A DNA stretch of 64,000 nucleotides. Source: Antedon mediterranea. Taxonomy: Eukaryota; Echinodermata; Crinoidea; Comatulida; Antedonidae. The notes under the pieces are model-generated. The model had not been told where the DNA came from. It worked only from the letters and a program-made list of their open reading frames with translations, and searched no databases. Positions 462 to 44,198 of the stretch are shown piece after piece (positions within the stretch are counted from its first letter, which is position 1; each line of letters starts with the position of its first letter). The stretch spans positions 2,728,001-2,792,000 of the forward strand of contig NC_092672.1 in assembly GCF_964355755.1 (NCBI RefSeq). The letters are read 5' to 3'. The position numbers and the translations under genes are program-made.

Positions 462-3400
462 TTATTTATAATAGAACAATATTCTTCTCTTTAAACACTC
501 TTCGGTCAAGTAATTGATTACATCACCTGATAGATTGCAATCCCGCATGTAAAGCTCCCTCAGCTTAGGACACATAATGAGTAATGAAGACAATGAATTA
601 ACAATGTTGTGAAGGTTATTTCGAGAGATATCGAGAATATCTAATGGCAATTGAACTTGTTTGTGAGAACAGTCTGTACTCAAGTGATTGATGACATCAA
701 CTGATAGATTGCAATCCCGCATGTAAAGCTCCCTCAGCAGCTTAGGACACATAATGAGAAATGAAGACAATGAATTAACATCAATGTTGTGAAGGTTATT
801 ACCAGAGATATCGAGAATATCTAATGGCAATTGAACTTGTTTGTGAGAACATTCTGTACTCAAGTGATTGATGACGTCAACTGATAGATTGCAATCCCGC
901 ATGTAAAGCTCCCTCAGCTTAGGACACATAATGAGAAATGAAGACAATGAATTAACATCAATGTTGTGAAGGTTATTACCAGAGATATCGAGAATATCTA
1001 ATGGTAATTGAATTTGTTTGTGAGAACATTCTGTACCCAAGTGATTGATGACGTCGCCTGATAGATTGCAATCCGGCATCCAAAGCGCCCTCAGCTTAGG
1101 AGACATAATGAGTAATGAACACATTAAATTAACATCAATGTTGTGAAAGTTATTACCAGGGATGTTGAGATAAGTTAATGCTAATTGAACTTGTTTGAGA
1201 GAACATTCTGTAACAAAGTGTTTGAATGCATCAGAGTCTCCTATTAGATTCTTAATAATCGTTCGTTCGTCACATTCAGCTATGGCTAAAATGTGTGCAA
1301 TTACTTTTCCCTTGCATTCCCCTGCCATCCTACCACTACTAAAACGCTCGATTTTTTCATCAAAATCCTCCATGCAATAAAGTTGCATAATCAGACGTAT
1401 GAAATGCCCATCACATTGTACATCTGGAAAAATGTGTTTAATAAACAATCTTATGGAATTAGCTATATCGTCCAAATGATTCTTTATTTCTAAATTTTGA
1501 ATGTGATTATTTAATTCATTTATCACATCATTTCTTTGTTTTTTAACAAAATTTAAATGAGCTGGTAGAGAACGGTATGTTGACAAATTATTTGTTATCC
1601 AATGCTTTAAAAATACATTAGCGTTAGCACCAAGGAAACCAATTGCAAACTCTCTTGCTTTGTATAAATACTCACTTTCTCTTATCACCTCCCATTCTTT
1701 ATCATCCAATGGTGCAAGTAATCGTTTTATATCTGTGTTACATCCACACTTCATACCTTTACTTTCACATAATTTACACTCACCCCATGTATTATCATCA
1801 AATGGTGTAAGTAGCCGTCTTACATCGTCTTCGCATTCAAACTTCAAACCTTCACTTTCACATAATTTGCTCAAGTACAGTCCTACCAATGACTCAACTA
1901 TCAACTTGTGGGGTGGCATGAAAACACTTTCAAAGTTAGATTTTAAAATTGGTGCTTCTTCGTAAACAAATCCAAGTTTGACGGCCATGTCAACCAAGTC
2001 CTTATTCGAATGTGTATTATTCAAATCTTTTCTGTTTATTGAAAGTTGATTTTGTTTTAAGCTTTTATACATACACTTTCCTAGCAAAACCATAGCGTAT
2101 ACATACTTCGCTGGGGTGTCTTCAAATTTAGAAATTTTGGCAAATTGTTTTTGTTTGTTAAATTGATTTAAAATACTACGGAAAAGTTGCTTGAAAAGAT
2201 CAGAACTGTCACTAGGAAGACTTTGATCGTTTTCCCATAGCATACAGATTGAAAGAAGTGACATTGGGTTTTTGCACATTGAATATGCTTCTGGATGTTT
2301 TGGAAAATAATTAGTTTGATTATATAATTCCCTTTTAAGCGATTCTCCCAATTGCGGTTCTCTAAAATATTTAAAATATTTATCAATATACTCCCATATC
2401 CTCTCTTGATTAAATCCCTTAACTCTTACATGTACGTTACACTCTCTTTTAAATTCATCTATGTTTTCTGATCGTGAAGTAAGTATCACAGTACTTTTTT
2501 TAAAGTTGTCTTTTCTGAAAAGACTAATAACGCTTTGATTATTAAATCTCAATTCATCTAATCCGTCTAGTAGCAAAACAATTTTGTCTTCAAGTATCTT
2601 TATACATTTCTTAATTAACCGTGGATCTTCTGGGAGATCTGTCTCTAAATTGAAATCTGTCATATCCAGTTGCTTTACAATTAAATCATAGATATCGGCA
2701 TCTTTTTCCAAATCTCTCAGACATAAAAAAAATACAATTTTACCTTCAAAGATATTATTAGATTGATTAGGTGTGGCCCACATGTATGATAAATGTCTTA
2801 ATATGGTAGTTTTACCAATTCCACCTTCTCCTTCTATGAGAGCTTTACATCCAGGTTTAGAACTGATAACATCAATCTCTTCTTCCAATGTTGTTGGGTT
2901 GCCTCCTTTATTGTTTTCAGTTTCCTTCTGTAGTTCCATATCGGTAAACATCTGTGAAATGTCAACTTTGTATCTATTATTCATTATTGCAGGTGTAAAT
3001 ATACTGGCCTGGCTGCACTTGTCCGTTTGTATTTTAATCAGATATGTTTGTATCTTTTCTAAAAACAACGAAAGTTATTCAATAGAGAGAATCTTATACT
3101 TAATCATATTCTATTAAGCATTTTATATATTATTATTATTATTCTTGATATAAATTCATCTTAATTACCGTATTTATTTATATTTTGTTTATTTTAGTAG
3201 GCCTAAGTTGGTAACAATTATAGTGGTTAGGTTGTACTTTTTACAGGCCTAGATAATGTCCATCCTGAAATATTTTATAAAAAATTGCTATAATATTAAT
3301 TTATTATAGCAATTTTAAACTATTTACTTAATAGCAGACTCTGTGGTATAGATATTTGTATTGTGCTTTTTGTAAATTATTAAGGTTTTAGAGGGCGACA

Positions 3401-6400
3401 AACACATTTTCTTTACTATCAGAAACAGAAAACTGTAATTGATCAAGAGGGCAGCAAACCGAAAAATAAATTTATCACAAATCAATACTGTAGATGTACG
3501 TTCAGGCCGGTAGACCACGATATTTCAGATTTAAATCAAACTAACTCGGTCAAAAAACGATATATGTATGTAAGTTTCATATTTAGTTGTTAATTTCTTA
3601 ATTTTCGCTGCAATAAAAGAGTTGTTCATATGCGAGCGACTGCACTGAGAGAAACAATTTAATTGTTGAAATACGATTGTTGGAATGAGGTGTAGACAAG
3701 AGGAATTGTTCTATATTGTAATTATATAATATCATACTAATCCTAATTATAATTACATTGTTCATGTTTTTTTCTTTTATAAGACTTGTTTAAAACTTAA
3801 CTCAATAAATCAAAATTTACAACAAGAAATTTTCTACTGCATAAAAAAATCGTCTTATTTAATTATACAATACATTCTAATAACTAACCTGTTTCTGACT
3901 CAACCTTATTCTGCGTTTCTTGTCCTTTGTTACTAGTAGTCGACACATCCACTGTTTAATAAATAAATAAATAACTGTCTTAATAATTATTATCAAACCG
4001 ACCTTATTACTTTACAATTATTCTACCGCATAATAAACTTCTTTATAGGAGAAAACTTTTAGAGTTTACAGTTATTAACTAACCTGTTTCTGCTTTTTGC
4101 GTTCCTTGTTCTTCGTTACTAGTGTTCGGCACATTTACTGTTTAATGATAAATTAGAATAGATAAATAGTTTAGTTAATTAAAAATAATTATAAATTTCA
4201 TAATATATAAATACAATTCTAATATAAAGAAATACAGTTTTCATTGCAGAAATATTCCAATTTAAGTAGTCAAGATATATTGCAATTAAGGTCTTTTTTT
4301 ACCAAAAAAAAAAAATCCTTTTTAGTAACGCACTTGTATATAGAGGGCGACAAACACAAGTTGAAATCAATCAGAAGGAGAAAACTTCAATCTCTGTACT
4401 GACATGATCGGAAATGACGTCAAACTGGTTTTTTTATAAACCAAAAGAGACAATAGGCCTAACCAAAGTAAAACAAGACTAAATATTCAACAAAATCCGA
4501 GATTAGATACATTTTACAGAGAGCATAAATTTAGAAACCTTCCACCCATTGAATTGTAATATTATTTGTTAATCTGTAACTCACCAGTTTCTGATTTAAC
4601 TTCTTTTTGTGTTTCTTCGTTAGACCTACCACTGGTCGGCGGCACTTCCTCTGTTAATAAAAATAACAGGAGAAATCTGAATTTACAATAATTTTAGGGA
4701 TTCATTTAAGCATAAATAATATCTAATTAAGATATAAAAAAACCTAAACCATTCGAATTAAATTCAAATAATGGCCAAACGAGTTTTGTTACATATTAAA
4801 CAAATCAATGGTGATGTGATTGATTGTTGTTTTCCCCGTAAATATTTGTAGTATGCCCTGCTCAACCTACCAGTTGATTTTAGAGTCAAAGTTTTCTAGA
4901 TTTATAATAATCCTTCTTTTCACAAATTTGTTGAATTAGATTAGGAATGATGAATGGAATGTATTTGTGGTTGATTTGGCTTCAATAATATCATCTCTAT
5001 ATTATATTTGTTCAATAATTGAAAACATGCCTCTGGATATCAATCAATCAATCAATTTATTTGGAAATTGCACCTTTACATCGGTGGCACACACAGTAAG
5101 TGGTGCATCCATATTAAACACAATTAACATAAAATGACGGATACTTAAGCTAATTTACAAAGTTAAAAAATTTAAAAAAAAAAATTTAAAATTAGTACTA
5201 TATACTGTGGCAATATTTGTATGAGTTGATACATCATTTTAGTTAAATATATAGATATTGGTTCCATGTGTGTTAAGGAACCTCCATCTTTTATCGGTTT
5301 TCTCAATCGTCATATTCATTTATTTACAATAAGGTAAGTATAAAAAATGATGATAACGTTGTATCTTAATGAGTAGTTATTAAGCTATCGTCTAATAAAG
5401 GTGTTAATAACACTACCAAATATTGACTGGAAAACAATCACAATTATACAATATGTCGTGTTACGACTTGTTTGGTTCACACTAACGTAACGCAATAATG
5501 TAGACCCAACGCAAGCGAATAGACCAATGATAAGCGACAGTTTGAATAATGCATCGCTTGTGATTGGTCAATTCACGACGTTGCTAAATATTTAATGTAT
5601 ATCTCCAGGCCTCATAACAGTAACTAACCTGTTTCTGATTTAACTTCTTTTCGTGTTCCTTCATGACTACTGGTCGTCGGCAAACAATCTGAATTAATAT
5701 TAAGAGCGCAATTCAGCATAGAATAATTTATACAAAAAAAAACTATTTACCATTATATACACATTACCAACAAAATGAAATCATTTTGTTATTGTTTACT
5801 GTATGGCCAAACAGTTGTGACTAACCTGTTTCTGACTTCATATCTGTTCTCATTCTTGTGTTACTACTATGCACTTCTGATAGATAAAAACAAATACAAT
5901 GACTTTTACCTAATGAATAAAATGATTATTTCTAGATATTGTTTATTTTCAAAATAATACGTTTGTGAATGTTATTCAAATTGAATTGTATTATGTTATG
6001 GTTAATGTAGGCCCTATATACTGTAAATACAATACCTGATTCTGACTCAGACTCGTTCGCCTGCCTATTTTTCCTTTCTGTCATTTTGGATCCGCCGCTG
6101 TTATCCTCTGCTTGTATTCCTGGTTCGTTGTTAGGTCTACAACTGGTGGTTGGCATTTGTTCTGTTTAAAAGAATAAACTGAATTTACAATATGGTATCT
6201 ATCTCGTGAACAACCAATGATCGGAGTATAAAATCAGCTAATAATAACGTATTAATTTGGAAATTAGTTAGGTTTATAGAGGGCGACAAACACAATTTGT
6301 GATCGACAAAAAGTAAATCACAAATCTGAAATAAACCAACACAAAACCGTATATCATATTTATTCGAACAAACGCCTCTCTCAAATAAACGCCCCATTAA

Positions 6401-7852
6401 AACAACATTTTGTATGTAGGCCTACAAAGTAGAATTTATTGACTTTCATGATCTCTACAATTTAGCAAACATATTAATTATATTGATACAATTGTTAATT
6501 TTGTTACAATAACGGATTTTGTTATATCCGACTGCACAATGAGGTGTAGGCTATAAGACATGAATTGTTCTAATACTAGATATAATGTTTTTTTTCGTAC
6601 AGTACAGAAAACATAATTACTATTACTAATAACTCACTTGTTTCATGTTCTACCTGTACTATTTGTTCTTCGTCACTGGTGTTCGGTGCATTTACTGTTT
6701 AATAAGAAACAATACAAATACAAATAAATGATAAAATAATAATATTCTACTCCATCAAATCAAATTGGGAGCCTTAGTATAAAAATAAGATTAATTATAT
6801 TAGCGGCGGTAAACACGGGCATATATTTGTTGGTCATTGTGTGTACCTTTTTTATTCGGACATAATGCGTTGAAACACCGGTTCTCGTCAGATTACCGGA
6901 AGTTAAGCAATTCGTTGGCCTGGTTGCGTTTGGAAATACCTCCGTCTGGAAATATCGCGTCGGCTGCTGTTATAGACCAGTGGTGAAATGATGGGAATCG
7001 ATAGCTAGGATAGGCATGAGTTCGTCCATATCTGTACCATGCTGATTGTTGTGTCATTAGGCAAGATATGCTTTACTCTCTCATTGCTTTGTTCTAATCC
7101 AATTCTAAGTTACGCTTGGGGACGATAATAACTAGGCCTACTACCTTTAATGTGGATGTTTTACACATAGGCTATTCATATAGTATTCTTCAATTAATTA
7201 TTTGTTTGCTAATTCGTTCCTGTTACATACCTTGTGTCAGGCATTTCATCGTTGATGCCACTCCAATTTTGTTAAGAATGTTAATAAACTCTTCTTTTCT
7301 TTCTTCACAAAGTATTTGTCTTTGTTCCAAGTCTATAATCATACTCCAAGAGTCTTCATAATTCTTTAATGGATTGTTGAAGAGTGCATCAATTTTCTTA
7401 ACAGCAGCCTTTCTTAGTTCGTTTCCAAAATCTGCAATCCAGTGTCGATATGGGGTGAAATTTATAATTTGTATTTCTTGAACTTCGAAGAAAGATTGTT
7501 GAAAAACGTTGATAGCTCCAAACGTTTGGGTTACTTTTATCGTTTCATAAAGTAACTCCAGATTGCCTGGGCTTAAACGCCCTGTTTTCCTCAATGCATT
7601 CAGTAGATCTATCGTTGTGTTGGCTTTGTCTATGTCTGCTACTGAAATTAAATCGTGGTATAAAACCTTCAGCTGTCTGACGAGGTTGTTTTTATCATAC
7701 CATTCTGAAAAGTTCACCAAGTCCACATTAAAATCTATTTCTAAAAATATAAAAGTGGGAAAAAGAGAAGATTAGAAAAAACATTTTTAAAATTGTTCTA
7801 CTCGATGCAATACAAAAAAGACTATTTATTGTTTGTTACCTGTTGCCGCCAT
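462..7852 (-). CDS. NLR-1: DED-like / NACHT / LRR innate immune receptor, ten coding exons
   Basis: Probable cytosolic pattern receptor of the NLR family. Minus-strand exons by splice sites and phase: 7840-7852 (start, MAAT), 7231-7740 (DED), linker mini-exons 6638-6694, 6036-6161, 5826-5876, 5629-5688, 4585-4650, 4084-4137 and 3889-3951, then 462-3058 (NACHT-LRR and stop). They sum to 3597 nt, or 1198 residues, in one frame; every internal junction is phase 1. Residues about 20-95 resemble a death-effector domain (conserved pattern LRKTGRLSPGNLELL). Walker A is GEGGIGKTT near residue 410, Walker B LLLDGLDEL near 495, sensor-like TVILTSR near 521. The C-terminus holds four near-identical 59-residue LRR units. 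The start rests on a short exon whose equivalent in NLR-2 gives MAT, so it is well supported but not proven. Family assignment is firm; the ligand and whether the DED signals to caspases are unknown. Confidence 0.85.
500..1205 (-). repeat. In-frame 177-bp LRR repeat array of NLR-1, four units
   Basis: Units are spaced 177 nt, one of them 180 nt because of a single extra leucine codon. Each unit encodes 59 residues, in effect two LRRs, with the pattern ISGNNLHNIDVNSL then CPKLRELYMRDCNLS. Three of the units are nearly identical at the DNA level, which points to recent unequal exchange or conversion. NLR-2 has only two units (about 28300-28620). Confidence 0.85.
5040..5160 (-). mobile_element. 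Probable LINE 3'-end relic in an NLR intron
   Basis: The minus strand ends in AAATAAATTGATTGATTGAT, the kind of short-repeat tail found at the 3' end of some non-LTR retrotransposons. The same piece is present in the NLR-2 intron (about 32080-32190), so it predates the duplication. No coding part remains. Confidence 0.35.
5466..5590. mobile_element. MITE fragment related to the 56134-56343 element
   Basis: Shares ACGTAACGCAA, CCAATGATAAGCGA-like and CGCTTGTGATTGGTCAATTC motifs with the complete short element at 56134-56343. A matching copy lies in NLR-2 (32519-32637), so the insertion predates the NLR duplication. Confidence 0.5.
6856..6975 (+). pseudogene. 5S rRNA-derived sequence (5S pseudogene or 5S-headed SINE)
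   Basis: Resembles animal 5S rRNA along nearly its whole length: CACCGGTTCTCGTCAGATTACC (block A region) followed by GAAGTTAAGCAA, then GGAAATACC and the terminal CGGCTGCTGTTATAG. Several substitutions and small indels rule out a functional gene. It sits in the 6530-7210 segment of the NLR-1 intron that NLR-2 lacks. A SINE with a 5S head is an alternative, since unrelated sequence continues directly downstream. Confidence 0.7.
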
Positions 7853-8409
7853 GATGTCAATTCAGTTTTCTATCTTCATTTCTGAAAAGCAAAATTTTTG
7901 TTTTTACAATAAATGCTGTCAAACCATGTCACCAGTGCTTTTCAGAGTAGACCTCTCTTTTTAAGTTACTTATTATGTCCCTCTACTTCTGTTCATTCAT
8001 TGCCTTAAAGAGTTCCCTCTGCTAAGGAACAGTTAAAATGTTCATTTTCTTCCCAATGGTTAGCTGTTAAGGACAAAATAAACTAAGTTCTCAACAACTA
8101 ATGATGTGAATTCAAAGTATATCTGATAACATAGGCGTTTGCGCTGATTAGAGCACCAAACAATGGTATGATGGACAAAGGTTACGTTTATGGTGTATGG
8201 CGTGATGTCTAATCACTAAATAAATACACTTTTAACTTTTATAAATGTGTTTACTTCCATGCTATAAGTCACGTAGTCAGAGCCCTATTTTCTACCCTGC
8301 CCCTGTACCCCTCAATTATCTTTTTTTTGCGAAGAGCCAAAAATACGTAAACAATGGAAATACAGTGGTCTATATTAATATTGATTATGACCATGATGTA
8401 TCTACAAAT
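7853..8409. other. Upstream flank of NLR-1, no recognised gene
   Basis: Contains the probable 5' UTR and promoter of NLR-1. The part from about 8110 to 8345 is repeated, with changes, near 8740-8915 and 59100-59285. No coding exon was recognised. Confidence 0.4.
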
Positions 8410-8725
8410 GTTATCTATAATCATACTCCAAGCGTCTTCATAATTCTGTAAGGGATTATTGTAGAGTGCATCAATTTTCCTAATGGCAGCCTTTCTGAAT
8501 TCGTTTCCAAAATCTGCAATCCAGTGTCGATATGGGGTGAAATTTATACTCTTGATTTCTTGAACTTCTTCAAGAACAGATTGTTTATGTTTTGTTTTAC
8601 ACCAACCTGTTGGTTACTTTTATTGTTATATAAAGTAATGTAAAATTGTCTGGTCTAAATGTCCTGTTTTCTTTAAATCATCCAGTAGTTCTTTCGTTCT
8701 ATTGGCTTTGCTTTGCTACTGAAAA
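8410..8725 (-). pseudogene. Decayed duplicate of the NLR DED exon
   Basis: On the minus strand this matches the C-terminal two thirds of the 510-nt DED exon: the coding equivalents of YEDSWSMIIDLE, the ALYNN/NPLKNYED region and WIADFGNE are readable. It is broken by small deletions, especially near 8600-8640 and 8705-8720, with no open frame across it. Flanking sequence is duplicated as well, so this is a partial tandem duplication of the NLR-1 5' end and not a retrocopy. Confidence 0.8.
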
Positions 8726-19670: not shown

Positions 19671-20061
19671 GCTTGCAAACGTTAAATTTTATTGTAAATA
19701 AATCCTAAGATGCATGGTTGAACCTGATAAATAAAATAAAAATAATCATATTATTATAGTAAATTAGTTGAAAACAGCATATTAATTAAACGTTTGAAGA
19801 CGGTGTTCTTTCTGAGTGCTATTAAGATGTCAACGACTAGGCCACTTCTACTCTACTAATAAAATTATATTAGTTAGTAATTACTAATAATAATTATAAC
19901 ATTAATACTGTAATACTGAAATTGCACAGCTGGTTTACCACACTGGCACCGTACTTGCCACACCCCTGCCAACAGTCACAAGCTATATGCAAAAAAGTGC
20001 AGGTACTCTTTATCAGGATATCCTAGGTAGGCCTACTACTAGCCTACTAAAGCTACTACTG

Positions 20062-21086
20062 TTCTTGATAACAGACAACAAAGAGTCAAAGTGCGTCATG
20101 CTTCGTCCAGTTGGGCTGATGTAATTAGTGGAGTTCCACAAGGCTCGGTGTTGGGCCCTACATTGTTTGCATTATATATAAATGACCTACCAAAGTATGT
20201 GTCTAGTCATATAAAGCTATTTGCTGATGATACAAAGATCTACTCAGTAGTTAACAACAGAAATGATGGGCAATTATTACAAGAATCTTTAAACAATGCA
20301 CTGCAGTGGAGTAAAGAATGGATGTTGGCTTTTAATAAAAGCAAATGCATGGTGATGCACTTCGGGCATTCAAATGTTCATTTTAAATACCAAATAGATG
20401 AAGTTGAACTGGAAACAGTTGAGAAAATAAAGGACCTAGGAGTACTAATTACTAATGACTGTAAACCAAGCCAACACTGCGCCAAAGTATCTCAGCGGGC
20501 CATGAACTGTTTAAGAAGCATCAGAAGGACTTTCGTATATATGGATAAGGATTGTTTTAACGTCATCTACAAGCATTATGTACGCCCACATCTCGAATTT
20601 TGTGTTCAAGTATGGAATCCGTATCTTCAAAAGGACATAAATGTAATTGAAAGAGTACAACGTCGTGCGACTAAATTAGTTCCATGTATCCGTTCATATT
20701 CATATGAAGATCGTTTAAAGTTTCTTGGCCTAACAACCTTGTATGACAGAAGAATTCGAGGTGACCTGATTGAAGCATATAAAATTGTTAAAGGTTTCGA
20801 GGGTGTAGCCAAGGATGACTTTTTCCAAATGAGAAGTAACATTAGCAGAATTACTCGAGGGCATCACCTGAGATTTTTCAAGCCTACTTTCCATAAAGGA
20901 TTGAACTGTAGAAGACATACCTTCTCGCAACGAGTAATTAACCATTGGAACAGTTTACCAGCCGACGTTGTCAATTCTGAGACCGCTAATACCTTCAAGA
21001 ATCGCATCGACACAATGTAGTTGATATGGGGTTTAAAAAGGCACATCGCCTAAACTTTCCCATTATAACTAAACTAAACTAAACTG
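20062..21086 (+). mobile_element. 5'-truncated non-LTR retrotransposon with TAAAC-repeat tail
   Basis: Open frame from 20064 to TAG at 21018-21020, encoding the C-terminal part of a reverse transcriptase: the SGVPQGSVLGP motif, the catalytic FADD box, then the thumb and C-terminal region (YVRPHLEFC, QRRATKLVP, SQRVINHWNSLP). The tail is three to four ACTAA repeats at 21066-21086. Possible 8-bp target duplication TACTACTG (20054-20061 and 21087-21094), but the region is rich in CTACTA, so this could be chance. The intact frame indicates a young insertion. Copy 2 lacks it near 57140. Jockey/CR1/L2-like; the exact clade is uncertain. Confidence 0.85.
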
Positions 21087-28231: not shown

Positions 28232-31200
28232 TTAATAACAGAAAGGTATCTTTCTCTTCAAACACACTTCGGTCAAGTAATTAATTTTTTCACCTGATAG
28301 ATTGCAATCCCTCATGTTAAGCCACTCCAGCTTAGGACACATAATGAGTAATGAAGACATTGAATTAACATCAAGGTTGTGAAGGTTATTACCAGAGATA
28401 AAGAGATAACGTAGTGCTAATTGAACTTGTTTGAGAGAACATTCTGTACCCAAGTGATTGATGACGTCACCTGATAGATTGCAATCCCTCATGTCAAGCA
28501 CCCTCAGCTTAGGACACATAATGAGACACAGTGAATTAACATCAATGTTGTGAAGGTTATTACCAGAGATATCGAGATAACGTAATGCTAATTGAACTTG
28601 TTTGAGAGAACATTCTGTAACGAAGTGTTTGAATGCATCAGCGTCTTTTAATAGATTCTCAATAATCATGTATTCGTCATATTCAGCTATGGCTAAAATG
28701 TGTGCAATTACTTTTCCCTTGCACTCCCCTGCTATCCTACTACTACTAAAATGCGCGATTTCTTCATCAAAATCCTTCATGCAATAAAGTTGCATAATCA
28801 GACGGTTGAAATGTCCATCACACTGTTCACCTGGACTTATGTGTTTAATAAAAAATCCTATGGAGGTAGCTATATCGGCCGAAGGATTCTTTATTTCTAA
28901 ATCTTGAATGTGATAATTCAAAGCATTTACCACAGCATCTTTATGGTTTTTTTTAACAAACTTTAAATTACTCGGCAGAGAGCGATATGTTGACAAACTA
29001 TTTGTAACCCAGTGCTTTAAAAAAGCATTAGCGTTAGCACCAAGGAAACCAATTGCAAACTCTCTTGCTTTGTTTAAATACTCACTTTCTCTTATCACCT
29101 GCCATTCAGTATCATCCAATGGTGTAAGTATTCGTCTTACATCTTCTGTGAATTCATTCTCGATACCATCACTTTCACATAATTTGCTCAAGTACAGTCC
29201 TACTAATGACTCAACTATCAACTTGTGAGGAGGCATGAAAACACTTTCAAAGTTAGATTTTAAAATCGGTGCTTCTTCATAAACAAATCCAAGTTTTACG
29301 GCCATGTCAATCATATCTCTTGTAGAATGTGTATCATTCAAATCTTTCATGTTTATTGAAAGTTGATTCTCTTTTAATTTTTTATACATACATTTTCCTA
29401 ACAAAATCATAGCATGTATATATTTTGCTGGAGTGTGTTCAAATTTAGAAATTTTGGCAAATTGTTTTTGTTTGTTAAACTGATTTAAAATACTACGGAA
29501 TAGTTGTTTAAAAAGATCAGAACTGTCACTAGGAAGACTTTCATTATCCTCCCATAGAATACAAATTGAAAGAAGTAACATCGGGTTTTTGCACATCAAA
29601 TAGGCTTCTTCATGTTTTCTCCCAGCCAAATAACTGTGAATATCCAACTCTTCTTTAAGCGACTCTCCCAATTCTGGTTTTCCAAAATACTTAAAATGAT
29701 TGACAATATACTTACCTATACTATCTTTGTTAAACCCCTTAACCCTTACATGTACGTTGCACGATTTTATGAAATAATTGATGTTTTCTGATCGGGACGT
29801 AAGCACTACAGTACTTTTTTTAAAGCTATTCCCGCTGAAAATTCTGGTTATGGTTTGATTATTAAATCTTAATTCATCTAATCCATCTAGTAGCAAAACA
29901 ATTTTGCCTTCATGTATCTTTATAAATTTCTTAATTAACCGTGGATCATTTGGGAGATCTGTTTCTAAATTAAAATCTTCCATATCCAGTTGCTTTACAA
30001 TTAGGTCAAATATGTTATCACCTTCTTCTAAATCTCGTATACTTAAAAAAAATACAATTTTACCTTCAAATGCTTTAATTGATTGACATGGAGTGGCCCA
30101 GTTGAATGATAAATGTCTTAATATGGTAGTTTTACCAATACCTCCCTCGCCCTCTATAAGAGCTTTACATCCAGGTTTAGAACTGATAACATCAATCACT
30201 TCTTCTAATGTTGTTGGTTTGCTGGTTTCTTTATTGTTTTCACTTTCCGTTAGTAATTCCATATCGGTAAACATATGTGAAATGTCAACTTTGTATATAT
30301 CATTCATTGTTGCAGGTGTAAATGTACTGGCCTGTTTGCACTTTTCCGTTTGTATTTTAATCAGATATGTTTGTATCTTTTCTAAAAACAAAGAAAGTTA
30401 TTCAATAGAATATTATACTTAATCATATTCTATTAAGCATTTTATATATTATTATTATTATTCTTGATATAAATTCATCTTAATTACCGTATTTATTTAT
30501 ATTTTGTTTATTTTAGTAGGCCTAAGTTGGTAACAATCATAGTGGTTAGGTTGTTCTTTTTACAGGCCTAGATAATGTCCATCCTGAAATATTTTATAAA
30601 AAATTGCTATAATATTAATTTATTATAGCAATTTTAAACTATTTACTTAATAGCAGACTCTGTGGTATAGATATTTGTATCGTGCTTTTTGTAAATTATT
30701 AAGGTTTTAGAGGGCGACAAACACATTTTCTTTACTATCAGAAACAGAAAACTGTAATTCATAAAGAGGGCAGCAAACCGAAAAATAAATTTATCACAAA
30801 TCAATACTGAAGATGTACGTTCAGGCCGGTAGACCACGATATTTCAGATTTAAATCAAACTAACTCGGTCAAAAAACGATATATGTATGTAAGTTTCATA
30901 TTTAGTTGTTAATTTCTTAATTTTCGTTGCAATAAAAGAGTCAACCTTTTTCTGCGTTTCTTGTCCTTTGTTACTAGTAGTCGACACATCCACTGTTTAA
31001 TAAATAAATAAATAACTGTCTTAATAATTATTATCAAACCGACCTTATTACTTTACAATTATTCTACCGCATAATAAACTTCTTTATAGGAGAAAACTTT
31101 TAGAGTTTACAGTTATTAACTAACCTGTTTCTGCTTTTTGCGTTCCTTGTTCTTTGTTACTAGTGTTCGGCACATTTACTGTTTAATGATAAATTAATAG

Positions 31201-34200
31201 ATAAATAGTTTAGTTAATTAAAAATAATTATAAATTTCATAATATATAAATACAATTCTAATCTAAAGAAATACAGTTTTCATTGCAGAAATATTCCAAT
31301 TTAAGTAGTCAATATATATTGCAATTAAGGTCTTTTTTTACCAAAAAAAAAATCCTTTTTAGTAACCACTTGTATATAGAGGGCGACAAACACAAGTTGA
31401 AATCAATCAGAAGAAGAAAACTTCAATCTCTGTACTGACATGATCGGAAATGACGTCAAACTGGTTTTTTTATAAACCAAAAGAGACAATAGGCCTAACC
31501 AAAGTAAAACAAGACTAAATATTCAACAAAATCCGAGATTAGATACATTTTACAGAGAGCATAAATTCAGAAACCTTCCACCCATTGAATTGTAATATTA
31601 TTTGTTAATCAGTGTAACTCACCAGTTTCTGATTTAACTTCTTTTTGTGTTTCTTCGTTAGACCTACCACTGGTCGGTGGCACTTCCTCTGTTAATAAAA
31701 ATAACAGGAGAAATCTGAATTTACAATAATTTTAGGGATTCATTTAAGCATAAATAATATCTAATTAAGATATAAAAAAACCTAAACCATTCGAATTAAA
31801 TTCAAATAATGGCCAAACGAGTTTTGTTACATATCAAACAAATCAATGGTGATGTGATTGATTGTTGTTTTCCTCGTAAATATTTGTAGTATGCCCTGCT
31901 CAACCTACCAGTTGATTTTAGAGTCAAAGTTTTCTAGATTTATAATAATCCTTCTTTTCACAAATTTGTTGAATTAGATTAGGAATGATGAATGGAATGT
32001 ATTTGTGGTTGATTTGGCTTCAGTAATATCATTTCTATATTATATTTTTTCAATAATTGAAAACATGCCTCTGGATATCAATTAATCAATCAATTTATTT
32101 GGAAAAATTGCACCTTTACATCGGTGGCACACACAGTAAGTGGTGCATCCATATTAAACACAATTAACATAAAATGACGGATACTTAAGCTAATTTACAA
32201 AGTTAAAAAATTAAAAAAAAAAAATTAAAAATTAGTACTATATACTGTGGCAATATTTGTCTGACATGAGTTAATACATCATTTTAGTTAAATATAGAGA
32301 TATTGGTTCCATGTGTGTTAAGGAACCTCCATCTTTTATCGGTTTTCTCAATCGTCATATTCATTTATTTACAATAAGGTAAGTATAAAAAATGATGATA
32401 ACGTTGTATCTTAATGAGTAGTTATTAAGCTATCGTCTAATAAAGGTTTTAATAACACTACCAAATATTGACTGGGAAACAATCACAATTATACAATATG
32501 TCGTGTGTTACTTGTTTGGTTCACACTAAGGTAATGCAATAATGTAGACCCAACGCAAGCGAATAGACCAATGATAAGCGACAGTTCGAATAATGCATCG
32601 CTTGTGATTGGTCAATTCACGACGTTGCTTAATATTTAATGTATATCTCTAGGACTCGTAACAGTACGGTAACTAATCTGTTTCTGATTTAACTTCTTTT
32701 CGTGTTCCTTCATTACTACTGGTCATCGGCACTTCCACTTTATAAATATATAATTAACAGAAAACAATCTAAATTAATATTAGGAGCGCAATTCAGCATA
32801 GAATTAATTTATATATAAATACTATTTCCATTATAATTATACACATTACTAACAAAATGAAATCATTTTGTTAGTGTACGTCTATACATATTGGTAACAA
32901 AATTAACAATTTTCTGACTTCATATCTGTTCTCATTCTCTTGTTACTACTATGCACTTTCTCTTATAAATAAAAACAAATCTAATGACTTTTACCTAGTG
33001 AATGAAATGATTATTTCTAGATATTGTTTATTTTCAAAATAATACGTTTGTGAATGTTATTCAAATTGAATTGTATTATGTTATGGTTAATGTATATACT
33101 GTAAATACAATACCTGATTCTGACTCAGATCCGTTCGTCTGCCTCTTCTTCCTTCCTGTCATTTTGGATCCGCCGCTGTTATCCTCTGCTTGTATTCCTT
33201 GTTCGTTGTTAGGCCTACAGCTGGTGGTTGGCAATTCTTCTGTTTAAAATAACAAACTGAATTTACAATATTATCTATCTTGTGAACAACCAATGATTAG
33301 AGTATCAATCCAGCTAATATACAACATTACGTATTAATTAGGTTTTTATAGAGGGTGACAAATAAAATATGCTCAACAGAAGGCAGTAAAATAAAAAAAA
33401 AATAAAAAATCTGTAATAGATGTTTAGTCAGCGATCTTTCAGATTAAATACAAAACCGTATATCAAATTTATTCGACTAAACGCCTCCCTTTGAATACAC
33501 GCCTCTCTCAAATAAACGCCCTATTAAAACATCGTTTTGTATGTAGGCTTACAAAGTAGAATTTATTGACTTTCATGATCTCTACAATTTAGCAAACATA
33601 TTAATTATATTGATGCAATTGTTAATTTTGTTACAATAACGGATTTTGTTTGATAATTAGTTCCTGTTACATACCTTGTGTCAGGCATTTCATCGTTGAT
33701 GCCAGTCCAATTTTGTTAAGAATGTTAATAAACTCTTCTTTTTTTTCTTCACAAAGTATTTGTCTTTGTTCCAAGTCTATAATCATACTCCAAGAGTCTT
33801 CATAATTCTTTAAAGGATTGTTGAAGAGTGCATCAATTTTCTTAACAGCAGCCTTTCTTAGTTCGTTTCCAAAATCTGCAATCCAGTGTCGATATGGGGT
33901 GAAATTTATAATTTGTATTTCTTGAACTTCAAAGATAGATTGTTGGAAAACTTTGATAGCTCCAAACGTTTGTGTTACTTTTATCGTTTCATAAAGTAAC
34001 TCCAGATTGCCTGGGCTTAAACGTCCTGTTTTCCTCAATGCATTCAGTAGATCTATCGTTGTGTTGGCTTTGTCTATGTCTGCTACTGAAATTAAATCGT
34101 GGTATAAAACCTTCAGCTGTCTGACCAGGTTGTTTTTATCATACCATTCTGAAAAGTTCACCAAGTCCACATTAAAATCTATTTCTAAAAAAATAAAAAG

Positions 34201-34289
34201 TGGGAAAAAGAAAAGATTAGAAAAAACATTTTAAAATTGTTTTCGATGCAATACAAAAACACCATTTTTTGTTTATTACCTGTTGCCAT
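28232..34289 (-). CDS. NLR-2: DED-like / NACHT / LRR innate immune receptor (paralogue of NLR-1)
   Basis: Exons with intact sites: 34280-34289 (MAT), 33675-34184 (DED, 510 nt, same length as NLR-1), mini-exons 33114-33239, 31623-31688 and 31125-31178, and 28232-30381 (NACHT-LRR). They sum to 2916 nt, 971 residues, one frame. Walker A GEGGIGKTT near residue 333 and Walker B LLLDGLDEL near 417 are preserved. Only two LRR units are present, against four in NLR-1. The DED exon differs from NLR-1 at only a handful of codons, while the NACHT exon is more diverged, particularly around SYLAGRKHEEAY. Three further mini-exons have lost splice donors and are probably skipped; skipping preserves the frame. 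Probably functional, with a shorter linker. Confidence 0.83.
30940..30995 (-). pseudogene. NLR-2 linker mini-exon truncated by a 280-bp deletion
   Basis: Matches NLR-1 exon 3889-3951 up to GAAACGCAGAA, then joins intron sequence (ACTCTTTTATTGC). The segment equivalent to 3622-3899 is missing, including the donor. The acceptor and peptide start (VDVSTTSNKGQ) are intact. Confidence 0.75.
32686..32970 (-). pseudogene. Two NLR-2 linker mini-exons with destroyed donor sites
   Basis: The equivalent of NLR-1 exon 5629-5688 (32686-32744 region) has its donor changed from GTTAGT to ATTAGT, although its acceptor is in better shape than in NLR-1, which carries a deletion there. The equivalent of 5826-5876 (about 32907-32955) ends in GAAAATTGTTAAT in place of GAAACAGGTTAG, which removes the donor and brings in a stop. 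Both would have been phase 1-1. Confidence 0.7.
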
Positions 34290-41567: not shown

Positions 41568-44198
41568 ATATTAGGAAGATACAGAAAAAACTTGAATATA
41601 GACTTTCAATACAAGCCATTTAGGTGGTATATAATGTATTGTCAATAAAGGTCGTTGTGTCCCATTTATGTAGAGATTCAATGTACAACCATAGAAACCT
41701 TTTGTTTTTACAACTCATCATGTCCATAATACAGGACAAGTCGAAAATTCATTCTATGCGCATACAGAAAAATGAGCATGCGCAGAATGACTATTAGACT
41801 CAATAGCTGTGCTGTAAAAACAAAAGTGGCTAAGTGTTTCGTTCGTTCACCTTCACACCAAGTGTATCTAAAATAGCACCTGATTAATTTGTATACGCAA
41901 AGGCAGTTTGAGTAGCATTCTATAGGATTTTACTTGGAATATTTAGATGTGGTAAAACTTCACTTATTTTTTAATTTTTCAGATAATAAGCCGCCAGGGT
42001 TGAATCCTATGAAAGCAATGTACATGTTTGATGACTTAGCAATGCAACGTAATTACACCGGTGTTCCATTTTCACAATCCGTCCCAACGTCATTCTTTGA
42101 AAAAGTAAGTCAAAAGAAATTACGAAAACATGAAGATTGTTTGAAGGTTTGCATGACGAAGAAAAACAAAGGTTGGGGCATATCATGTTACCGTACCACA
42201 AAGGTTGGGGCATATCATGTTACCGTACCACAAAGGTTGGGGCATATCATGTTACCGTACCACAAAGGTTGGGGATATCATGTTACCGTACCACAAAGGT
42301 TGGGGATATCATGTTACTGTACCACAAAGGTTTGGGGATATCATGTTACTGTACCACAAAGGTTGGGGGATATCATGTTACCGTACCACAAAGGTTAGGG
42401 GATATCATGTTACCGTACCACAAAGGTTGGGGAATATCATGTTACTGTACCACAAAGGTTGGGGGATATCATGTTACCGTACCACAAAGGTTGGGGAATA
42501 TCATGTTACCGTACCACAAAGGTTGGGGGATATCATGTTACCGTACCACAAAGGTTGGGGATATCATGTTACCGTACCACAAAGGTTGAAGGGATATCAT
42601 GTTACCTTACCACAAAGGTTGGGGGATATCATTTTACCGTACCACAAAGGTTGGGGCATATCATGTTACCGTACCACAAAGGTTGGGGGATATCGTGTTA
42701 CCGTACCACAAAGGTTGGGGCATATCATGTTACCGTACCACAAAGGTTGGGGGATATCATGTTACTGTACCACAAAGGTTGGGGATATCATGTTACCGTA
42801 CCACAAAGGTTGAGGGATATCATGTTACCGTACCACAAAGGTTGAGGGATGTCATGTTACCGTACCACAAAGGTTTGGGGATATCATCTTACCGTACCAC
42901 AAAGGTTGGGGGATATCATGTTACCGTACCACAAAGGTTGGGGGATATCATGTTACCGTACCACAAAGGTTGAGGGATATCATGTTACCGTACCACAACG
43001 GTTGGGGATATCATGTTACCGTACCACAAAGGTTGGGGCATATCATGTTACTGTACCACAAAGGTTGAGGGATATCATGTTACCGTACCATAACGGTTGG
43101 GGATATCATGTTACCGTACCACAAAGGTTGGGGGATATCATGTTACCGTACCACAAAGGTTGGATGGATATCATGTTACCGTACCACAAAACTGACTTTC
43201 AATGTGTTGGGAGGATTAGAGTTTCTCTAAATGTATATTAAATCATACTTTGTTACAATTTATAAATTTCATTTTGTCATTCTAGATTCTTTGACGGCAC
43301 ATAGATTTTTGACCGACATCCAGATGACCTTGAAGAAGTATCAAGACAATTATGGATAAGAATGTGGTCAAAGGTCAACTAGTTCCAAGCATTTATTATT
43401 TCTATATAATATAATTATATTAACTTAAAAATAATTTTTTTAACAGGATAAAGAAATTTCAGATCCCACATCCGTTCTTGAGGTATGTGAAGATTAAATT
43501 TTTTTTTATAAAACTTTTTTTTTGGCAATCAAAATTACAAAAAACTGGATTAATATTTTTGTTGATTGGGGTGAAAATTTAAATTTAATACTATATTATG
43601 ATATATGATATGATATCTATTGTCATATCAAATCTACATCTTCAATTATTTTTAGGCAGTCCTGGCTGCTGGAATGTCTGAAGAGGTCGCTAATAAATGC
43701 ATGTCAAAGGTCAAAGATTAATCAACAAAGGAAGAGTTAAAAAGAATAACAGGCAATGCACTCGAAAGTGGTGTAAGTAATTTGAATTTAAAGTTTATTT
43801 TTTATTTTTAAAATTAATTCAATTCACAGTATATATTGGCGAGTCTGTAGTATACAATTACATATTCAAATAAAAAACGTGATTTTAATTTGTAGCCATT
43901 TGGCCACCATGGATATTAGCTCACAAAGATGGAGAAGTAAAGACATTTTGGGGAATAGATAAAATACCTCTTTTAGCTCATGTAATAGGTAAAAACGCAT
44001 GCAAATTATCAAATAATACTTGTAGTAGGCATACATTTAGTATTTTAAAATCACTGTATTATTAGCAGTATTGTCATCATATATTTGTCAATGTTTTCAT
44101 TTTCATTAGAAATTAATACTGTGATAATATTTTTTTTAACTTTTATACTTACAGGTGAAAAATGGGAAGGTCCATTAAAACCATCATCAAAATTATAG
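41568..44198 (+). pseudogene. Dead GSTK1 duplicate lacking exon 1
   Basis: Retains equivalents of GSTK1 exons 2-8 at 41568-41640, 41983-42104, 43286-43373, 43447-43482, 43656-43772, 43896-43988 and 44154-44198 with most splice sites. Breaks: no exon 1 in the window; exon 2 is frameshifted after YKPF; exon 3 is one base short; exon 4 lacks 14 bases; exon 6 has a TAA at 43719-43721 in place of a Gln codon; exon 7 has lost a base. The terminal SKL codons persist. Intron 3 contains a large minisatellite. A fragment or lineage-specific noncoding transcript is conceivable, but not an enzyme. Confidence 0.93.
42168..43195 (+). repeat. 31-32 bp minisatellite, about 32 units, in the dead GSTK1
   Basis: Unit: GGTTGGGGGATATCATGTTA plus CCGTACCACAAA, with small variations (GGGG, GGGGG, TGAGG). 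GSTK1 has one related unit at the same intron position (25263-25305), so the array arose by expansion from a single copy. The unit has no stop in any plus frame, so the array yields several false open frames of 120-200 codons. Confidence 0.97.

Follow-up and report, generated by a model that had tools for sequence, protein, structure and literature searches.

Mini-exons of symmetric phase form a modular linker between the DED-like and NACHT domains in an expanded NLR family of Antedon mediterranea

N-terminal repeats encoded exon by exon are known from the zebrafish NLR-B30.2 genes (NLR-C; Howe et al. 2016, PMC4852459), a large NLR expansion in which repeats of ~30 amino acids, one exon each, adjoin death-fold domains upstream of a large NACHT exon and vary in number among genes, with evidence of exon shuffling (PMC4852459; PMC11192531). 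In NLRP3 and other human NLRs, the leucine-rich repeats (LRRs) are built from modular, alternatively spliced exons, encoding folded LRR pairs (171 bp) whose skipping, proven at the RNA level, keeps the frame and alters activity (Hoss et al. 2019, PMC6642158). The linker between PYD and NACHT in NLRP3 is encoded by a single exon, exon 3, and its designed deletion changed oligomer size and the route of activation (PMC13226650). In titin, many short repetitive PEVK exons encode a disordered tether, with length variants arising by splicing and by evolution (PMC6469411). The segment that joins death fold to NACHT is often treated in NLR research as passive.

The genes described here share with the zebrafish family its large expansion, its single-exon repeats in numbers that vary among genes and the position of these repeats, which lie next to a death fold and precede a large NACHT exon. 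The likeness is one of arrangement, and the repeats measure 16-24 amino acids (rarely 42) rather than ~30. Unlike the zebrafish receptors, the Antedon genes use a DED as death fold and carry their LRRs in the NACHT exon; in a Pfam scan (E up to 0.1) of the NACHT exons of the two genes studied most closely, FISNA (PF14484) was not found, and neither was a B30.2 domain in these receptors. Repeated, frame-preserving exons are common to the NLRP3 LRR region and to the Antedon genes, but the Antedon modules, read from DNA, encode a probably disordered linker. NLRP3 exon 3 offers a parallel in that it, too, encodes the linker that joins death fold and NACHT, although it does not belong to a repeated set. 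The resemblance to titin lies in the short repetitive exons and the disordered tether; protein and composition differ, and no homology is claimed. Per-exon N-terminal repeats and modular LRR exons are thus known in NLRs, and here it is the linker that is modular, with the LRRs sharing the NACHT exon. The earlier note on this DNA had held such a linker to be without a standard description, which goes too far, given that the zebrafish repeats precede it (PMC4852459).

The window analysed is a 64-kb stretch (G000:C3:2728001-2792000; G+C 33.6%) of a genome that spans 354 Mb in 18 contigs. Its minus strand carries two NLR genes, A (462-7852) and B (28232-34289). In both, a very short exon bearing the ATG is followed by a DED-like exon of 510 nt, by small exons and by a single large NACHT-LRR exon. 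The exons of gene A are as follows:

7840-7852, minus strand: exon 1, ATGGCGGCAACAG (MAAT), ending in phase 1
7231-7740, minus strand: DED exon, 510 nt, phase 1-1, DED-like and possibly a tandem DED
6638-6694, minus strand: mini-exon E1, 57 nt, VNAPNTSDEEQIVQVEHET, missing in gene B and in paralog L031
6036-6161, minus strand: mini-exon E2, 126 nt, with a weak donor, GTATTG
5826-5876, minus strand: mini-exon E3, 51 nt, EVHSSNTRMRTDMKSET
5629-5688, minus strand: mini-exon E4, 60 nt, DCLPTTSSHEGTRKEVKSET, its acceptor unlike those of B and L031
4585-4650, minus strand: mini-exon E5, 66 nt, EEVPPTSGRSNEETQKEVKSET
4084-4137, minus strand: mini-exon E6, 54 nt, VNVPNTSNEEQGTQKAET
3889-3951, minus strand: mini-exon E7, 63 nt, VDVSTTSNKGQETQNKVESET
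462-3058, minus strand: NACHT-LRR exon, entered in phase 1, with Pfam NACHT (E 1.4e-21) and LRR_1

The encoded proteins are DED-NACHT-LRR receptors, in which death fold, NACHT and LRRs are all present. The NACHT NTPase domain was recognized in A and B (Pfam PF05729, E 1.4e-21 and 7.9e-20), and LRR_1 scored above its cut-off in both. The NACHT-LRR exon contains tandem repeats that code for LRRs. Gene A has four of them, each 177 nt long (506-1212), and gene B has two of 171 nt (28290-28632), so that LRR number, too, differs between the neighbors. The N-terminal death fold is DED-like, matching Pfam DED with E 2e-8 at 34.7 bits, against a gathering score of 35.9; the exon also weakly matches c-FLIP tandem-DED chains (E 0.0014), and its structure model is helical at low confidence (mean pLDDT 50.9, built from two near-identical sequences). 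Directly upstream of gene A lies a broken DED copy (8392-8712, minus strand) with three stops and 56% identity to the DED of A.

Seven phase-1 exons of 51-126 nt had been noted between DED and NACHT, and all seven were found there (E1-E7; 3889-6694, minus strand), each bordered by an AG acceptor and a GT donor and each a multiple of three in length. Like the DED exon, every mini-exon is phase 1-1, and phase 1 also holds for the first intron and for the one that precedes NACHT; introns among and flanking the mini-exons measure 132 to 978 nt. When the ATG exon, the DED exon, E1-E7 and the NACHT exon are joined, one open protein of 1198 amino acids results, with a linker of 159 amino acids rich in E, T, S and N. 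The assertion that any subset splices in frame is borne out, since the frame is kept in 128 of 128 subsets of E1-E7, giving 66 distinct linker lengths. Six of the seven mini-exons (all but E1) end in G; the codon at the joint then begins with G, which makes a stop impossible there. The exons had also been described as variants of one motif. That description suits E1 and E4-E7 well, applies loosely to E3 and holds in part for E2, with its 42 codons.

Gene B, the direct neighbor of A, has a closely similar linker region in which several of the modules have decayed:

34280-34289, minus strand: exon 1, ATGGCAACAG, placed by alignment
33675-34184, minus strand: DED exon, its protein 98% identical to that of A
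33114-33239, minus strand: mini-exon E2, splice sites intact
32909-32963 (ends approximate), minus strand: E3 remnant, donor region replaced
32678-32734 (start approximate), minus strand: E4 remnant, donor GT changed to AT
31623-31688, minus strand: mini-exon E5, intact
31125-31178, minus strand: mini-exon E6, intact
30938-30992, minus strand: E7 remnant, 3' end and donor deleted
28232-30381, minus strand: NACHT-LRR exon, Pfam NACHT E 7.9e-20

Three of seven mini-exons (E2, E5 and E6) are usable in B, for a linker of ~82 amino acids against 159 in A, and the DED and NACHT frames are open despite the damage to E3, E4 and E7. E1 and ~1.1 kb around it are missing. Paralog L031 also lacks E1 and has the same damaged E4 donor as B; given these shared features, E1 may represent a gain in A or a loss shared by B and L031. 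Within the block missing from B, in the DED-E1 intron of A, lies a 5S rRNA-like fragment (6852-6950, plus strand; 25 bits, below the Rfam gathering score) that is probably a 5S-derived repeat.

How widely is this arrangement distributed? A pattern that takes no account of frame or gene (AAACAG, 45-60 bases, GAAACAGGTTAGT) matched 21 times in the whole genome and its reversed control 0 times; a wider DNA pattern gave 31 matches genome-wide and 3 in the control. Among pattern matches in NLR/DED loci read whole, all 28 were multiples of three and open in phase 1, and all 28 carried stops in phase 2, while one match outside NLRs, checked likewise, had a length that was no multiple of three. A scan combining a splice-site score with a peptide profile over 154.6 kb from A, B and 23 further loci, 25 linker regions in all, returned 52 mini-exons; the same scan returned none on the reverse strand of these regions and none in 10 dinucleotide shuffles. 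Because the scan accepts only open frames whose length is a multiple of three, it tests sequence similarity and not phase, for which the pattern search is the test. Genome-wide, the relatives of the gene A DED number at least 150 DED-like exons, and NACHT relatives run to dozens, again a lower bound. The genome of Antedon mediterranea thus holds a very large DED/NLR expansion, and the modular mini-exon linker is a feature of the whole NLR family.

Comparing mini-exon number across the NLR loci of the genome, the check that the earlier note had proposed, gave 0 to 7 per gene, some counts being lower bounds where the linker region stops short of the DED-to-NACHT span:

0 mini-exons: L043 (a distant NLR) and L047
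1 mini-exon: L041, L050 and L051
2 or 3 mini-exons: L032, L033, L039, L044 and L045
4 to 5 mini-exons: L031, L035 and L053
7 mini-exons: A and L052

Exon+intron modules have been duplicated and lost gene by gene, in agreement with the duplication that had been proposed for gene A. The strongest evidence comes from tandem units of ~176 bp in two paralogs: L053 has four exons at a spacing of 170-177 nt, with exon+intron units that align (466 nt, 83%), and L044 has three at 175-178 nt (280 nt, 82%). L052 carries two copies of a two-exon block (308-564 versus 3263-3525, 88%; 617-765 versus 3524-3672, 85%), and in L049 the duplication falls within an exon, EEVPRSSSIDTRMQIEEVPRSSSSDTRMQIEE. A linker intron of L053 also contains a 69-nt minisatellite (3490-4205).

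Second to these tandem units as evidence stands an intron motif, AGAGGGCGACAAACACA, which had been reported as shared by the introns of gene A and which occurs in three of them:

6278-6294, plus strand: AGAGGGCGACAAACACA in the E1-E2 intron of A
4342-4358, plus strand: AGAGGGCGACAAACACA in the E5-E6 intron of A
3390-3406, plus strand: AGAGGGCGACAAACACA in the E7-NACHT intron of A

The window holds five exact copies and one with three mismatches, versus 0.13 expected, and the likeness between introns around the motif spans ~42-51 nt. The motif is not exclusive to gene A, as the genome contains 32 exact copies, 18 of them within ~2 kb of NACHT exons of the family of A (hand count). Given its occurrence outside mini-exon introns, the motif agrees with module duplication and is by itself no proof of it. 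Seven exact copies lie on one strand within 1 Mb on another contig (G000:C5:12746272-13726155), distant from the listed NACHT genes.

Composition points to a linker that is intrinsically disordered and a DED that is ordered, with mean hydropathies of 0.329 for the gene A linker (boundary 0.445) and 0.476 for the DED (boundary 0.424) in charge-hydropathy terms. Mini-exons of different genes share a common core, VxTSxNEEQG..K..KSET. Within the exons of 63 nt, codons 11 and 19-21 (Q11, S19, E20 and T21) are nearly invariant, third positions included, whereas the others vary. The conserved end TCA GAA ACA G runs on directly into the donor GTTAGT, and for this reason part of the 3'-end conservation probably serves splicing. 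Pooled pN/pS is ~0.7 for the 63-nt mini-exons versus 0.26 for the DED of close paralogs; the mini-exon value is weak evidence, owing to short exons and mixed paralogous pairs, and one shifted frame yields a similar figure (0.77).

We consider it probable that the mini-exons encode an expandable, disordered tether between DED and NACHT that is resized in small exon+intron units. Under this model, the tether would lengthen by tandem duplication of such units and shorten by their decay and deletion; phase 1 at both ends, together with the terminal G (except in E1), would leave the frame intact and the joint free of a stop whenever a unit is gained, lost or skipped. The mini-exons are predicted from their sequence to be spliced into the receptor mRNA. 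During NLR activation, oligomerization of NACHT brings death folds together. From this general mechanism, and from the NLRP3 linker-exon deletion, a longer tether would be expected to alter the reach and local concentration of the DEDs. How freely the DEDs of neighboring protomers reach one another could then depend on tether length and on how many acidic Ser/Thr modules the tether holds, and the signaling threshold would thereby be tuned. Length diversity arises mainly between genes, with linkers of 159 amino acids in A, ~82 in B and ~17 in other paralogs; a single gene probably also skips exons occasionally. The weak amino-acid constraint on the mini-exons relative to the DED speaks for a spacer role; the near-invariant Q11, S19, E20 and T21 hint at a role beyond neutral spacing, although the 3' end doubles as donor context.

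Could the variety instead be generated within single genes? Combinatorial alternative splicing of different E1-E7 subsets would let one gene yield many receptors with linkers of 0 to 159 amino acids, a possibility we regard as open to considerable doubt. All 128 subsets stay in frame, and exons of 51-66 nt are near the lower size limit for efficient exon definition. The mini-exons are also purine-rich (0.71 versus 0.48 in introns) with ~4 GAA each, as expected for exons that rely on purine-rich splicing enhancers; the E2 donor is weak; and in-frame skipping is established for NLRP3 LRR exons (PMC6642158). Most splice sites, however, are uniform and near consensus (donor GTTAGT in 29 and acceptor AAACAG in 31 of the 52 mini-exons), which fits constitutive inclusion, and phase symmetry is equally what tandem exon duplication alone would leave: only symmetric exons duplicate without a frameshift, so that symmetry is expected either way and does not prove combinatorial splicing. 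In the strongest version, regulated or stochastic mini-exon inclusion would make one gene the source of dozens of receptors with the same sensor and effector, differing only in tether length (0-159 amino acids, 66 possible lengths), and this we think rather unlikely; if true, cells could set or randomize the activation threshold of an innate receptor.

A further reading takes copy number as valency and not as length, the repeats acting as multivalent short linear motifs for docking or phosphorylation in an acidic Ser/Thr context. The recurrent core and the nearly fixed codons 11 and 19-21 amid variable ones argue for it; the fixed 3' end may, however, be kept by splicing rather than by the protein, the remaining positions are loosely conserved, and no known motif was identified in the repeats, all of which makes this reading unlikely. 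That the mini-exons are relics of old duplications, no longer present in mRNA, would accord with the visible loss of splice sites in several copies (E3, E4 and E7 of B). It is nonetheless highly improbable, given the intact splice sites, lengths divisible by three and open frames in all 28 NLR/DED-locus matches read, and given that A and L031 on average resemble each other more closely in their exons than in their introns (0.88-0.98 for E2-E7 versus 0.854).

Recent paralogs with nearly identical DEDs and very unequal linkers offer a natural length series in which tether length can be set against DED clustering. The family also shows clearly how immune genes are diversified when exons duplicate in tandem without disturbing the frame, a parallel to the fish genes.

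Two other elements were observed in the window. A fragment of a retroelement reverse transcriptase lies at 20043-21020 on the plus strand (Pfam RVT_1, E 5e-14), and a 32-nt minisatellite of 32 copies occupies 42166-43190, where several frames are open because the unit length is no multiple of three.
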